A stretch of 56,430 bases of DNA from Actinomycetota bacterium (GTDB lineage Bacteria > Actinomycetota > Acidimicrobiia > Acidimicrobiales > Ilumatobacteraceae). The notes beneath the pieces were generated by a model that did not search any database, was not told the DNA's origin, and worked only from the letters and a program-made list of their open reading frames with translations. Positions 33,054 through 39,526 of this stretch are shown here, in pieces. The position numbers and the translations under genes were made by a program. The stretch is from positions 1 through 56,430 of the forward strand of contig VGCD01000012.1 of NCBI GenBank assembly GCA_016870215.1, in the 5' to 3' direction. Position 1 is the first letter of the stretch; each line of letters starts with the position of its first letter.

Positions 33054-33127
<74 letters not shown>

Positions 33128-35237: not shown

Positions 35238-36379
35238 TGCATCGTCGCGCACAATTTCTGAGTATCGATGACGCCCGCGAACGTGCGAGGCGGCACTTGC
35301 CCCGCATGGTGTTTGACTACGTGGACGGTGGGTCTGGTGCTGAAATCACCATGAATGCAAACAGGGCTGCATTCGATGAAGTCACTTTCCGACCACGTAT
35401 GGGCGAGCCACCAGCATCTATCTCCCTAAATATCACTGTTCTCGGACAAGAGCTACGTAGTCCGTTGCTGTTTGCGCCGTGCGGTCTGATGGGAACCATA
35501 CATCCCGATGCTGAGTCCGGCACAGTGCGCGTAGCCGAGGCAAAGGGCACTATTGCTGCCATCAGCTCGTACTCGAGCAAGTCGCTCGAACACATTGCGG
35601 CAGCGTCATCGGCGACGAAATGGTTCCAGTTGTATTTCCTCGGTGGTCGTGCCGGAGCGATGAGTCTGGTCGAACGTGCCGAGGCCTGTGGTTACGGCGC
35701 CATTGTGCTCACACTCGACACGAACGTTCCGGCAAGCCGCGAGCGCGACACACGTAACCGTGTGATTTTTCCGCTCGCGTTGAATCTCACCAGTATCAAG
35801 CGCTTTGGCCCGATGTCGCTTGCTCGACCACTTTGGCTGTGGCGTTTCTTGCGCGCCGGAATGCCGTTTCACGTGGCAAACGTGATCGAAGCACGAACCC
35901 TCTCTGAGGTTGACACTCATGCATCGATCTTTAACAGTCCGCCCGGATGGAACGATGTCGAATGGATTCGGCAACGGTTCAGCGGCAAAGTGGTGGTGAA
36001 GGGAATACTCACTGGTGAAGATGCGCGTCGCGCAGTAGAAGTTGGCGCTGATGCCATCATTGTGTCGAATCATGGCGGTCGACAACTAGACGGTGCACCT
36101 GCGACATTGCGAGCGCTTCCAGAAGTTGTTGAAGCGGTCGGTGGACGGGTTGAGGTGTACATGGACGGCGGTATTCGCCGAGGCTCAGACATTGCGAAAG
36201 CGATGGCACTCGGAGCTCGCGCAGTCTTCATCGGACGTCCTTACCTTTATGGTCTTGCCCTTGCAGGCGACACCGGTGTCGTAGCGGTTCACGACATGTT
36301 GACGGCACAATTGACTGAGACGATGCATTTGCTTGGTTGCGATGACGTGCGCAAGCTTGACTCGTCGTGGTTGTGGTGA
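35213..36379 (+). CDS. FMN-dependent alpha-hydroxy-acid dehydrogenase (LldD-like)
   Basis: TIM-barrel flavoprotein oxidising lactate or another 2-hydroxy acid. Typical elements: the N-terminal ARRHLPRMVFDYVDGGSG; the central KWFQLYF; VVVKGILTGEDA with the FMN-binding Lys; the catalytic VSNHGGRQLDGAP with His and Arg; and DGGIRRGSDIAKAMALGA with IGRPYLYGL for the phosphate. GTG 35213 gives 388 aa but overlaps the divergent MFS gene by about 25 bp; TTG 35237 is the alternative. The next gene overlaps its stop by four bases. Confidence 0.9.
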   Translation: MARSDHSTLHRRAQFLSIDDARERARRHLPRMVFDYVDGGSGAEITMNANRAAFDEVTFRPRMGEPPASISLNITVLGQELRSPLLFAPCGLMGTIHPDAESGTVRVAEAKGTIAAISSYSSKSLEHIAAASSATKWFQLYFLGGRAGAMSLVERAEACGYGAIVLTLDTNVPASRERDTRNRVIFPLALNLTSIKRFGPMSLARPLWLWRFLRAGMPFHVANVIEARTLSEVDTHASIFNSPPGWNDVEWIRQRFSGKVVVKGILTGEDARRAVEVGADAIIVSNHGGRQLDGAPATLRALPEVVEAVGGRVEVYMDGGIRRGSDIAKAMALGARAVFIGRPYLYGLALAGDTGVVAVHDMLTAQLTETMHLLGCDDVRKLDSSWLW

Positions 36380-37125
36380 ACGATATGGATGCCGACTTGG
36401 ACGATGTCGGGTACTCAGAGCGGTCATTTCTCGGTGGCCCTCGTACGCGTTTGCGGGAATTCGGAACAGTCACGCGAGTGACGCGCGAATTGATCAATGG
36501 GTTTCGACGTCTGCATTTCGTAGGGCCATGCGTGACGGTGTTTGGCTCGGCGCGCATTGTTGAGGGAACCCCTGATTACGAGCTTGCACGGCGTGTCGGA
36601 ACCGAGATGAGTCGCCTTGGGTTCACAGTGATGACCGGTGGAGGCCCAGGCATCATGCAGGCCGCAAACCGGGGAGCAAAAGAGGCAGGTGGTTTCAGTG
36701 TCGGTTGCACCATCAACCTGCCCCGCGAAAAACATGCCAATCCGTATCTCGATGTGTCTGTCAACTTCAGGTATTTCTTCGTGCGAAAAGTGATGCTGGT
36801 GAAGTATTCATATGCATTCATCGTGATGCCTGGTGGTTTCGGCACGCTCGATGAATTGTTCGAGGCGTTGACTCTCATTCAGACTGCGAAGATCCACGAT
36901 TTCCCGATGGTGGTAATGGGCACGCAGTATTGGTCAGCACTTGTGGCGCAGCTAGATGACATGGTCACGCACGGCACCATCAATCGTGAAGACCTCAACT
37001 TGTTGCTCGTCACTGACAGTGTCGATGAGGCAGTTGCTCACGTGCAACGCTGTGCTGTCGAACGATTCAAGTTGCACCGTCGACTAAAGCCCATTCGGGC
37101 ACTCGGAGAACACGCCCGACCCTGA
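36376..37125 (+). CDS. LOG family protein (cytokinin riboside phosphate hydrolase type)
   Basis: Rossmann-fold protein of the TIGR00730/LOG family, about 249 aa. The signature PGGFGTLDELFEAL is near residue 158, with TGGGPGIMQAANRGAKEAGG before it. Enzymes of this group remove ribose phosphate from nucleoside monophosphates such as cytokinin precursors; the bacterial substrate is often unknown. Translation probably starts at GTG 36376, overlapping the stop of the dehydrogenase gene; ATG 36385 is next. Its last codons (from 37084) are part of a repeat found again at 38807. Confidence 0.9.
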   Translation: MNDMDADLDDVGYSERSFLGGPRTRLREFGTVTRVTRELINGFRRLHFVGPCVTVFGSARIVEGTPDYELARRVGTEMSRLGFTVMTGGGPGIMQAANRGAKEAGGFSVGCTINLPREKHANPYLDVSVNFRYFFVRKVMLVKYSYAFIVMPGGFGTLDELFEALTLIQTAKIHDFPMVVMGTQYWSALVAQLDDMVTHGTINREDLNLLLVTDSVDEAVAHVQRCAVERFKLHRRLKPIRALGEHARP

Positions 37126-37211
37126 CTGGCCGGTCTATGTGGACACCGACACGTACACCGCAGTTGCCTCTGCAACCACGGTTTCAATGTGAAGACTTCG
37201 ACGCTTGCAAG
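37084..37211 (+). repeat. Direct repeat A, copy 1: gene-end junction LOG/thioesterase
   Basis: About 128 bp resembling 38807-38935 in the same orientation. The best part (37113-37170 against 38836-38893) differs at three positions only, two of them adjacent; outside it similarity drops but reading-frame matches persist. It contains the intact end of the LOG gene (ending GEHARP) and, 9 bp on, the converging 3' end of a thioesterase remnant. Confidence 0.85.
37135..37211 (-). pseudogene. Remnant of a thioesterase 3' end
   Basis: On the minus strand this encodes HIETVVAEATAVYVSVST and a stop, against HVDTVVAEATAVYVSVHT and stop in the intact thioesterase gene at 38858. Upstream of about 37211 the similarity ends. 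The stop codon stands at the same distance from the LOG stop (9 bp between) as in the other copy. It is therefore a truncated homologue, not chance. Confidence 0.8.
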
Positions 37212-37212
37212 G

Positions 37213-37233
37213 AGGCGGAGCTCAAGTCCACAG
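37213..37233 (+). repeat. Short direct repeat B, copy 1
   Basis: AGGCGGAGCTCAAGTCCACAG, 18 of 21 bases identical to 38761-38781. Together the two copies bracket the GNAT-AAA gene just inside repeat A. The following 37234-37510 hold no gene I can recognise apart from the unresolved 5' end of the fusion gene. Confidence 0.5.
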
Positions 37234-37512
37234 ACCTTGGTGGTGCAGCATGAAGGCTCCGGCCAATTCTGCGTTTGGGTGATTTTGATTGGGGATGACG
37301 GCGATACGGGGCCTTGTAGCGATGTAAACGCTTCGCCGGGGGTAGCCACCTGAGGGCAAGTAAGCACAGTATCGAGACCAGATCATGGCGTGCCCTACCC
37401 AATGTTGCCCCTGTCTCCGAAGACTAATTCTCGTGAATGAAGCAAACCTCGGGTACATTTCGGTATCGACTTTGAAATTTCTGACCTTGCGCCCCGAGAC
37501 CTTGGGGCTGCC

Positions 37513-38736
37513 GTGAGGTTGCTTGAGGAGTTGCGCTCTTTCCCGGACAGCGCTCCCATCGAAATCGCTCAGTTCATTGCAGACGTGAATGATGGGGCGG
37601 TGGTTGTGACGGCCCATGCGAAGGGAACTCTCATCGGACTTGTCGGTGCACGACTCGCAGGAGACCATGCTTGGACTCAGTTGGTCGCGATACATCCCGA
37701 ATGGCGAAATCTGGGAATTGGCTCGGCTCTATCGGCAGGACTTGAGAATCGACTCCTCCATCTCGGAGTGCGTCGTGTCTCCGCTCTCATAGGACCGGGT
37801 CAGGTCGGTGAGCAAGCACTCGTGAACCGGGGATTTGTTCCCGTTGAAGGATTGAAACTGTACGAGAAGTGCTTGTCGCTTGAACCAAGTGAAGTTCGCA
37901 TCATCGACAAGTGGGGTGGCGAGGTCTTCGACGACCATCGGTGGGCACTACTCACGGGGATGACGAGAGAACGTGAGTTGGTTAATCAACGGATAGTCGC
38001 GCCTTTGTCCGATCCCGGTCTTGCGTATTCAGTCGGTCTCCGACTTCCGAGCACTGTGCTCATGTTCGGTCCTCCAGGTACCGGCAAGACGACCTTTGCC
38101 AAGGCTCTGGCCAGCAAATTGCGGTGGCCCTTCATCGAGTTGCTGCCCTCAAAACTCTCCGGTGGCAATGGCACTCTTGCAAACGAACTTCGTGAGGCGT
38201 TCTCCGAGTTGAGCAGACTTGAGCATGTGGTGATTTTCATCGACGAGTTCGACGAAATCGCTCCGGCGCGAGACTCACGACCGTCCGCAGCCGGGGTCGT
38301 CAACGAACTCTTGAAGTCAATCCCCGAATTTCGTCAACAGTCTGGAAAATTGCTGATCTGCGCGACGAATTTTGTGGGCACTATCGATCCGGCTGTTCTG
38401 CGTCCGGGACGATTCGATTTTCTCATCGGCATCGGCCCACCGGACTTGGTCGCTCTCACCGCACTGTGGTCACAAGCACTCACCCTCATGAATTTTGATG
38501 GCACAAAGATTGCTGAGACTTTGGCCAAGCAATCCATCGGCTACACCCCGGGCGACGTCGACCTTGCCGCGCAGCGTGCTGCAGCTTCAGCGTTCTCGCG
38601 TGCTCAAATCGACGGCAGTGTGCCCGTGGTATCGGAAGACGACCTCCTTAACGCCATCGGCAGAACCCAACCTTCGATCTCCCCCGACATGGTTGAGGAC
38701 TTCAACGCCGAAGTCATCAAGTTCGAACGCATCTGA
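37513..38736 (+). CDS. GNAT acetyltransferase-AAA+ ATPase fusion protein
   Basis: One polypeptide of at least 407 aa. Residues 1-120 are a GNAT domain with the acetyl-CoA loop in HPEWRNLGIGSAL (61-73) and a C-terminal GFVPVEGLKLYEK. Residues about 150-405 are a single classical AAA+ domain: Walker A GPPGTGKT (186-193), Walker B VVIFIDEFDE (239-248), sensor-1 ATN (284-286), and arginine fingers in LRPGRFD (296-302). GTG 37513 is the first usual start, but coding-like sequence (FEISDLAPRDLGAA) precedes it in frame without a start codon, and a GTG 37433 frame runs into it with a different phase, so a frameshift or rare start is possible. It lies between direct repeats and has no family-typical neighbours. 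Confidence 0.85.
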   Translation: MRLLEELRSFPDSAPIEIAQFIADVNDGAVVVTAHAKGTLIGLVGARLAGDHAWTQLVAIHPEWRNLGIGSALSAGLENRLLHLGVRRVSALIGPGQVGEQALVNRGFVPVEGLKLYEKCLSLEPSEVRIIDKWGGEVFDDHRWALLTGMTRERELVNQRIVAPLSDPGLAYSVGLRLPSTVLMFGPPGTGKTTFAKALASKLRWPFIELLPSKLSGGNGTLANELREAFSELSRLEHVVIFIDEFDEIAPARDSRPSAAGVVNELLKSIPEFRQQSGKLLICATNFVGTIDPAVLRPGRFDFLIGIGPPDLVALTALWSQALTLMNFDGTKIAETLAKQSIGYTPGDVDLAAQRAAASAFSRAQIDGSVPVVSEDDLLNAIGRTQPSISPDMVEDFNAEVIKFERI

Positions 38737-38760
38737 GTCTCTGCCCCCGGAGTCTTCAGT

Positions 38761-38781
38761 AGGCGGAGCAAAAGTCCCCAG
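38761..38781 (+). repeat. Short direct repeat B, copy 2
   Basis: AGGCGGAGCAAAAGTCCCCAG, located 24 bp after the GNAT-AAA stop; matches 37213-37233 at 18 of 21 positions. Confidence 0.5.
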
Positions 38782-38806
38782 CATCGCCGAATCTGCGAAT
38801 TCTTCG

Positions 38807-38848
38807 ATGAAGAGCTATCTCGCTCGGGGTGAGTGCGCCCAACCCTGA
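38807..38848 (+). pseudogene. Remnant of a LOG-gene 3' end
   Basis: Fourteen codons ending in TGA at 38846-38848 align with the last fourteen codons of the LOG gene (7 identical positions including the stop, and the same spacing to the facing thioesterase stop). No start or LOG core precedes it. Confidence 0.65.
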
Positions 38849-38935
38849 CTGGCCGGTCTATGTGTGCACCGACACGTACACCGCAGTTGCCTCCGCGACC
38901 ACCGTGTCGACGTGGCGAACTTCACCGCTCGCAAA
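38807..38935 (+). repeat. Direct repeat A, copy 2: gene-end junction LOG/thioesterase
   Basis: Counterpart of 37084-37211. Its left part (38807-38848) translates as MKSYLARGECAQP and stop, aligning with LKPIRALGEHARP and stop at the intact LOG end. Its right part is the genuine 3' end of the thioesterase gene. The two copies are thus reciprocal: each has one intact and one remnant gene end. Confidence 0.85.
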
Positions 38936-39526
38936 GCTCTTGCGCCCATCAACACCAGTGCCGCGCGCAGTAACTGTCAGAGGAGCACCAAGTGGTGTGC
39001 CGGCACGGAAGCGGATATTTAGTGCAACGGTGAGGCCACTCGCGCCTGCTGCTGTTGAGGCGACGCCAAGTACTTCGTCGAGCATTGTCGCGACAATTCC
39101 GCCGTGTGCTTTGTCGGGTGGCCCCGACATCGAGGCATCAAGCACAGCATGTGCCGTGACCTCTACAGGTTCGTAAGTGTCGCCAGGAACCGGCACGGGG
39201 TCAAACGACAGGATTGGTGCGCGAGGGTTGAGTGGGCCAGAACCTGCTTGAGTGACATTTTCAATGCGACCATTGAGGTGGCGCACGATAGTGATGTACG
39301 GATGGCGCACCTTGGTACGCAGTCGGTCATTCACCATTTTGATGTCGGTTGCAATGGCGGACTTCGCCGCATCGTCGATGTCTGTGCGTATCACGGCATC
39401 AAGAAGTTCACGAACAACCGCAATGAGTTCATGTGATTCTGTAGAAATCGAATCGGGTGACGGAATTGAGTCGCCCATCGACTTCGCAAGTTCCATTGCA
39501 GAACGTGGTGCTGGTTCTGTACTCAT
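38858..39526 (-). CDS. Hotdog-fold thioesterase (PaaI type)
   Basis: 222 aa. The hotdog domain lies in the C-terminal half: the family motif DKAHGGIVATMLDEVLG near residue 138, then TVALNIRFRAGTPLG and a final strand EATAVYVSVHT. The Asp/Glu in LDEVLG is where the catalytic acid sits. The N-terminal 75 residues are helical and extra to a minimal PaaI protein. Expected to hydrolyse acyl-CoA thioesters. Its 3' end is part of repeat A. Confidence 0.88.
   Translation of the reverse strand: MSTEPAPRSAMELAKSMGDSIPSPDSISTESHELIAVVRELLDAVIRTDIDDAAKSAIATDIKMVNDRLRTKVRHPYITIVRHLNGRIENVTQAGSGPLNPRAPILSFDPVPVPGDTYEPVEVTAHAVLDASMSGPPDKAHGGIVATMLDEVLGVASTAAGASGLTVALNIRFRAGTPLGAPLTVTARGTGVDGRKSFASGEVRHVDTVVAEATAVYVSVHT

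Follow-up and report, generated by a model that had tools for sequence, protein, structure and literature searches.

A GNAT-AAA+ gene inserted between two copies of a gene-end junction in an Ilumatobacteraceae contig, and a conserved DNA end that links the insert to cassettes at tRNA-Lys

The contig VGCD01000012.1 (assembly GCA_016870215.1) of an Ilumatobacteraceae bacterium, analysed here over a stretch of 56,430 nucleotides (the window), carries a gene for a GNAT acetyltransferase fused to an AAA+ ATPase (GNAT-AAA) between two copies of the convergent ends of a LOG gene and a thioesterase gene. The DNA was inserted at this junction, and the displaced gene ends have since decayed reciprocally. 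What is new here is an 84-bp conserved end at the edge of junction copy 1, which links the insert to cassettes found at tRNA-Lys in relatives. We propose that the insert is probably an integrase-less mobile cassette at an unusual (secondary) site, this being the best explanation of its structure. The features of the locus are as follows.

36367..37125, + strand: LOG gene (TIGR00730 / PF03641), intact, left neighbour; 93% amino-acid identity to genomes G009 and G030.
37084..37210, + strand: junction copy 1, with the intact LOG end to 37125, a spacer (37126-37134) and then the thioesterase remnant.
37135-37208: thioesterase remnant in junction copy 1, with a 1-nt deletion.
37211..37289, + strand: complete copy of the cassette end ("right arm"), 79 bp; 75% identity to G024 and 74% to G028.
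37465..38736, + strand: GNAT-AAA+ gene (PF00583 and PF00004), with a probable ATC start; the open reading frame (ORF) list starts it at GTG 37513.
38730..38759, + strand: possible decayed left arm of the tRNA-Lys upstream type, a weak match.
38760..38782, + strand: truncated second copy of the cassette end, its first 23 nt.
38807..38933, + strand: junction copy 2, with a LOG remnant (38807-38848), a spacer (38849-38857) and then the intact thioesterase end.
38858..39526, - strand: thioesterase gene (4HBT, PF03061), intact, right neighbour; 86% and 85% amino-acid identity to G030 and G009, respectively.

The junction is 126 bp long and its two direct copies lie 1,723 bp apart. The core repeat (37113-37191 and 38836-38914) is 79 nt at 89% identity with the same spacing; for direct repeats with a minimum length of 40 nt and a maximum distance of 10 kb, the repeat search reported no second one in the window. 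Aligned locally, the junctions score 68, whereas none of 1000 shuffles exceeds 16, and the spacer between the facing stop codons is 9 nt in both. The earlier note on this DNA had described just such a direct doubling about 1.72 kb apart, copy 1 with the LOG end intact and copy 2 with the thioesterase end intact; this description is confirmed, and the junction coordinates 37084-37209 and 38807-38933 are good to a few bases. Homology of copy 1 to copy 2 stops at 37209/37210, copy 2 keeps the last 25 thioesterase codons intact (stop counted), and in a BLAST alignment the target copy on both sides of the insert measures 98 bp at 85%. Similarity beyond the core is weaker. The outer arm on the thioesterase side has p=0.003 anchored and p=0.09 unanchored. 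On the LOG side, past the last 13 bp, gapped tests are not significant (p=0.83, p=0.32) and significance is reached in fixed register only, with 14/29 matches to the window's own LOG gene (p=0.004) and 18/29 to relative L003 (p=0.0004), each the best of five lengths tried; the remaining four lengths against the own LOG gene give p values from 0.01 to 0.07.

The sequence that follows junction copy 1 matches G024 and G028 over about 77 bp. In G028 the matching stretch forms the right half of a longer sequence, the left half of which stands alone in many genomes, and some part of this left/right sequence is matched in 20 of the 32 genomes of the genus, the window's included. The left half consists of the region upstream of tRNA-Lys(TTT) and the first ten tRNA nucleotides, the tRNA-Lys being confirmed by ARAGORN in L136-L138, L142, L143, L147 and L164. 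Repeat D4 had been considered as a chance repeat or as the left half of R; both readings were rejected, D4 being the start of the right half. The full cassette end is 84 bp and starts GGAGGCGGAGC at the boundary, a feature that the window copy shares. A right-arm profile built from 14 other arms, with the window left out, matches the window at two places only, both on the + strand and at the edges of the insert: 37211-37289 (E 6.9e-10) and 38760-38782 (E 0.0025), the best value in 158 kb of control loci being 0.024. Two edges therefore coincide, as junction homology ends at 37209/37210 and the conserved end begins at 37211. A second end that directly follows the cargo, like the one at 38760, is present in G119. 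Just before the truncated end, 38730-38759 compared with 20 left arms gives a mean of 13.15/30 matches (p=0.012) and a best of 16/30 (p=0.021), and junction copy 1 used as a left-arm control gives a mean of 5.8 (p=0.79). The core pattern of the end at up to one mismatch has only two sites in the window genome (G000); in relatives it has eight matches, four with and four without the extended arm, and a reversed control pattern also has four, which makes the short core pattern unreliable as a marker by itself. Four cassette-end patterns searched against viral contigs gave a single match of 21 nt (E 1.7e-4), which was taken as chance, the rest of the arm being absent.

The insert lies at the 3' end of the thioesterase gene and not at nucleotide 10/11 of tRNA-Lys; the sole tRNA found in the window is a tRNA-Met at 33054. 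GNAT-AAA is the sole gene of the insert, and no integrase or transposase gene was found in it, in agreement with the earlier note. In relatives, nucleotide 10/11 of tRNA-Lys(TTT) is the commonest site of the 84-bp end, which at occupied sites of the genus comes immediately after tRNA nucleotide 10. An uninterrupted tRNA follows the left half at 11 places (G013, G012, G017, G020, G026, G021, G011, G022, G025, G004 and one G027 contig), and the sequence retrieved there contains no right arm; left-arm matches in G016, G006, G023 and G014 are outside these counts. At eight places the left arm is followed by the 84-bp end (G028, G031 twice, G008, another G027 contig, G119 and G131 twice). Occupied and empty flanks agree over 400 bp at 95.5% for G028/G013 and 94.5% for G027c36/G027c49. 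Across the family the end was detected in 10 of 221 genomes, from five genera and always from the boundary onward, by a query that missed G000 and G027, both shown by other searches. A copy of the left arm (53-83 bp, 82-100%) recurs downstream at six of the eight boundaries (G028, G031 twice, G008, G119, G131), and at the other two the sequence ends 2,003 bp (G027) and 45 bp (second G131) further on. The downstream copy in G028 is 96% identical to the G024_dn copy and 82% identical to the copy upstream of the same cassette, which suggests that it moves together with the element; the corresponding difference in G031 is slight (91% against 89%) and the G008 data do not discriminate. Cassette arrays occur in G031 and G119, and G131 has two boundaries. 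Judged by sequence, the window insert and the tRNA-Lys cassettes share the conserved end together with a like layout, in which a target copy stands on both sides. A hotspot with different cargos exists at tRNA-Lys for elements sharing this end. The earlier note had placed a cargo-swapping hotspot at the LOG/thioesterase junction itself, which the comparisons do not show: no relative was seen with other cargo there, and only 3 of the 32 genus genomes, several of them incomplete, have the LOG gene at E<=1e-60.

Several cassette contents were recorded along the way. A diversity-generating-retroelement-like unit (RVT_1, bAvd and Lcl_C proteins) lies at 129-3427 of L137 (G008:C40), between the 84-bp end and tRNA-Lys. 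A Rieske/TetR unit common to G119 and G031 (90% and 74% amino-acid identity) stands directly upstream of tRNA-Lys in L164 and L136, in two genera. A cassette shared by G119 and G028 was considered and rejected on comparison. One cassette ORF has a weak, sub-threshold DDE_Tnp_1 match.

The state of the site before insertion can be read from relatives. The LOG gene, searched at E<=1e-60, is present in three of the 32 genus genomes (the window genome counted), many of which are incomplete (G009 62%, G030 63%). In both of the other two, L003 (Acidimicrobiaceae bacterium UBA2093; taken as G030:C9) and L004 (an Actinomycetota metagenome-assembled genome; taken as G009:C46), the LOG and thioesterase genes are directly convergent with 10 nt between the stop codons and the GNAT-AAA insert is absent, which is the empty site that had been predicted. 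With these two as outgroups, changes in the junction were assigned to the intact and remnant branches. The intact branches have nine changes, every one of them in the third position of a codon (LOG 4/4, thioesterase 5/5), against 6 of 21 on the remnant branches (LOG 2/12, thioesterase 4/9), which also carry the 1-nt deletion (Fisher p=7e-4); a separate run over a longer tail showed the same trend. At six sites both junction copies have derived states in common against both outgroups. The copies are thus more closely related to one another than to L003 or L004, and they diverged within, or close to, the window lineage. This bears on the earlier idea of a segment arriving with its own diverged junction copy: insertion and foreign cargo are borne out, and an origin of the copy from elsewhere is weakened by the six shared sites. 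Divergence along the junction is uneven. Of 30 differences over 126 sites, two fall in the best 52 bp and 28 in the 74 outside (permutation p=1.5e-4, the width picked after the fact; widths of 30, 40 and 60 give p=0.03, 0.008 and 2.5e-4), which suggests recombination or conversion in the centre, with selection as an alternative.

The cargo is foreign. Its closest relative, in G032 of another genus, has 88.7% amino-acid identity and a 4-fold-site difference of 0.352; for the same genome pair the UPF0182 core protein has 62% and 0.648. Against G009 and G030 the UPF0182 protein of the window genome has 91% amino-acid identity, and core or neighbouring genes differ at 4-fold sites by 0.48-0.72. 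Since the cargo is 89% identical to a gene of another genus and UPF0182 only 62%, these comparisons show it to be foreign, transferred between genera. Most simply, the gene would have been acquired by transfer after the split from G009/G030. G009 and G024 hold the gene at different loci (75% and 70%), and its neighbours differ among the three closest relatives. Bracketing repeats, sought at 12 GNAT-AAA loci, are clear at the window only, the next best being 15 nt (E 0.008). The fusion had been called unusual, a description that finds no support: full-length relatives at 52% identity or more occur in 9 of 60 relatives searched, and plasmid records already use the name "bifunctional GNAT family N-acetyltransferase/ATP-binding protein", from which the window protein differs only in sequence and in its inferred ATC start. 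Among the plasmid matches listed, 19 of 20 have 38-44% identity over at least 92% of the query and the remaining one covers 77%. No close plasmid carrier was found, all 1187 records being below 60% identity; none of 107 phage records covers 80% of the query, and a search of viral contigs gave no confirmed carrier.

The AAA part is nearest to CDC48/VCP-like ATPases by sequence, and the likeness is confined to that part: the CDC48-type family TIGR01243 scores 113 bits, below its cut-off of 803, and the IetA anti-phage ATPase NF042959 scores 92 bits, below its cut-off of 510, in the AAA part only. The PADLOC IetA profile matches the protein at E 7e-29. From these domains, the protein may be a stand-alone AAA+ remodeller headed by an acetyltransferase; the literature searched gave no description of the function of a GNAT-AAA fusion protein. 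An ATC start is apparent in three genomes, at 37465 in the window, L065:6953 (G032) and L066:7346 (G009); seven loci (L067-L073) have ATG at or near the same point and L074 is ambiguous. Over the 15 codons after ATC the window and G032 differ at nine sites, of which a hand count places seven at third codon positions, so this stretch looks translated. A possible -10 box, TACATT, lies by eye at 37454..37459 on the + strand, 5 nt before ATC, and GGG(G)TANNNT is likewise seen 5-6 nt upstream of ATC in the window, G032 and G009, a position consistent with a leaderless mRNA.

Features of four other GNAT-AAA loci may be recorded. L073 (G021:C16, 430-7128) has a tandem 3.34-kb duplication, 99.2% identical, that includes a second copy of the gene; it is close to a contig end and may be an assembly effect. 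A second, more distant relative (54%) in the window genome, L075 (G000:C16:656-1810), matches in three pieces only, one with an internal stop. In L067 (G024:C123, 3070-4489) the gene directly follows tRNA-Glu(CTC), perhaps another tRNA-linked insertion. L065 contains a 17-nt match to one left arm (E 0.002), more than 5 kb from its GNAT-AAA gene.

We propose the following route for the window insert. The inserted unit would begin with the 84-bp conserved end (37211) and carry one gene (GNAT-AAA), with a truncated second end (38760) and a 126-bp target copy coming after it. A site-specific recombinase acting in trans would have used a position some 25 codons short of the thioesterase gene's end as a secondary site for this cassette, and the target copy borne by the element would have kept that gene whole, as element-borne left arms would do for tRNA-Lys. 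If the arrays in G031, G119 and G131 are a guide, the GNAT-AAA unit may have been placed ahead of an older element that already occupied this position and has since been gutted. More tentatively, and as a suggestion that we hold to be doubtful in its general form, Acidimicrobiia may possess a system of cassettes, about 1.5-6 kb in size, each of which has one 84-bp end, lacks its own recombinase and is moved by a recombinase in trans. The usual entry point of such cassettes would be the 5' portion of tRNA-Lys, for which the element brings a promoter and the first ten nucleotides; a new site, in this case in a protein gene, would become open to a cassette that carries a copy of the end of that gene. 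If so, lone-gene insertion would be tied to a hotspot and a DNA end that are both defined, which would give a handle on the gain of single accessory genes, the diversity-generating-retroelement-like unit included, in small-genome actinobacteria without visible integrases; the 84-bp end would be a ready probe for the recombinase.

A number of results weigh against a mobile cassette. The derived states shared by both junction copies require that the element-borne copy come from the window lineage or one near it, and the junction centre is too alike for uniform decay. The junction has no resemblance to the tRNA-Lys left arm (best E 0.48), and that arm was not detected in G000 at E<=0.001. The cassette end is present at none of 11 other GNAT-AAA loci (best E 0.44; some contigs end near the gene), and 6 of the 14 arms have no preceding tRNA-Lys left arm. 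At five such sites (G147, G119b, G102, G118 and G024; the sixth, G106, was outside this test) no copy of the left flank appears in the 2.1-8.3 kb of downstream sequence at hand, so a target copy is not a constant feature. The tRNA-Lys loci were found with a left-arm query, and the shared target-copy layout is therefore partly a product of selection. No recombinase or integrase family exceeds its cut-off in the 29 cassette ORFs scanned, short ORFs and the rest of the genomes lying outside that scan.

Three other explanations were considered. A staggered break or slippage could have doubled the 126-bp junction locally, foreign DNA being captured between the copies and the displaced ends then decaying, with no site-specific recombinase involved. 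Such a duplication accounts fully for the junction, including the states derived against G009 and G030 in both copies and the third-position bias of the intact ends beside the unbiased remnants. It leaves unexplained that the tRNA-Lys cassette end lies precisely at the start of the insert, that the insert closes with a truncated second one and that the layout at tRNA-Lys is alike, and we regard it as rather unlikely. The presence of a cassette end at the exact edge is equally unaccounted for by Campbell-type homologous recombination of a circle with a conspecific junction copy, without any site-specific function. In that event the near-identical centre would be the crossover or conversion tract, which suits its contrast with the flanks, but the circle must already have carried the junction and no such donor was seen; we judge this course quite improbable. 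There is, finally, a slim chance that the 79-bp match has nothing to do with the insertion and is an interspersed repeat or a regulatory RNA standing beside it by coincidence. Its varied contexts in the ten family genomes and the copies that lack a tRNA-Lys left arm would fit a dispersed sequence; however, its position and the junction edge agree to the single base, the opposite end of the insert has another, partial copy, and Rfam gives no match in 36900-39200 up to E 0.1.

Integron cassettes are small, contain one to a few genes and a single recombination site apiece, and occur in arrays; the R' core of their attC sites has the motif GTTRRRY. The elements described here resemble them in being small, in having a single recombination-site-like sequence and in forming arrays. 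They differ in that the GTTRRRY core is, by eye, absent at the boundary and no IntI was found in the 29 cassette ORFs scanned, the rest of the genomes being outside the search. The lack of a transposase gene in the insert counts against a reading as a transposon or insertion sequence. Literature searches on tRNA-linked genomic islands with an integrase in Acidimicrobiia returned only a genome encyclopedia (PMC9903846), and absence from print is claimed no further than the searches made.

Further parallels are found in three papers. In Dehalococcoides, tandem islands at the single ssrA site are bracketed by copies of the RNA gene end, and 15 of them are without an integration module and were suggested to be cis-mobilizable elements (PMC3146451). 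The likeness lies in tandem units between RNA-gene copies, with the integration module missing in some. Those islands use the ssrA 3' end, 20-bp repeats and a putative serine recombinase, whereas the cassettes here use nucleotide 10/11 near the 5' end of tRNA-Lys with a 53-83 bp target copy, are few-kb units in which no recombinase was seen, and have one member in a protein gene. Cis-mobilizable elements (CIMEs) lack integration genes, keep att-like ends and accrete in tandem (PMC5704250). The window insert has the same want of integration and transfer genes, and the empty site is present in L003 and L004; in contrast to CIMEs, its ends are no more than candidate att sites, and no intact parent element was found. 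In Methylophilaceae, the islands use the last 20 bp of tRNA-Lys(ctt) and the tycheposons carry xerD (PMC10872708), so the tRNA end and the bacterial group are other than those here; the additive island there is nevertheless at tRNA-Lys and is marked by recurring tRNA-fragment repeats, just as the cassettes described here share a tRNA-Lys site and recurring repeats of a target fragment.

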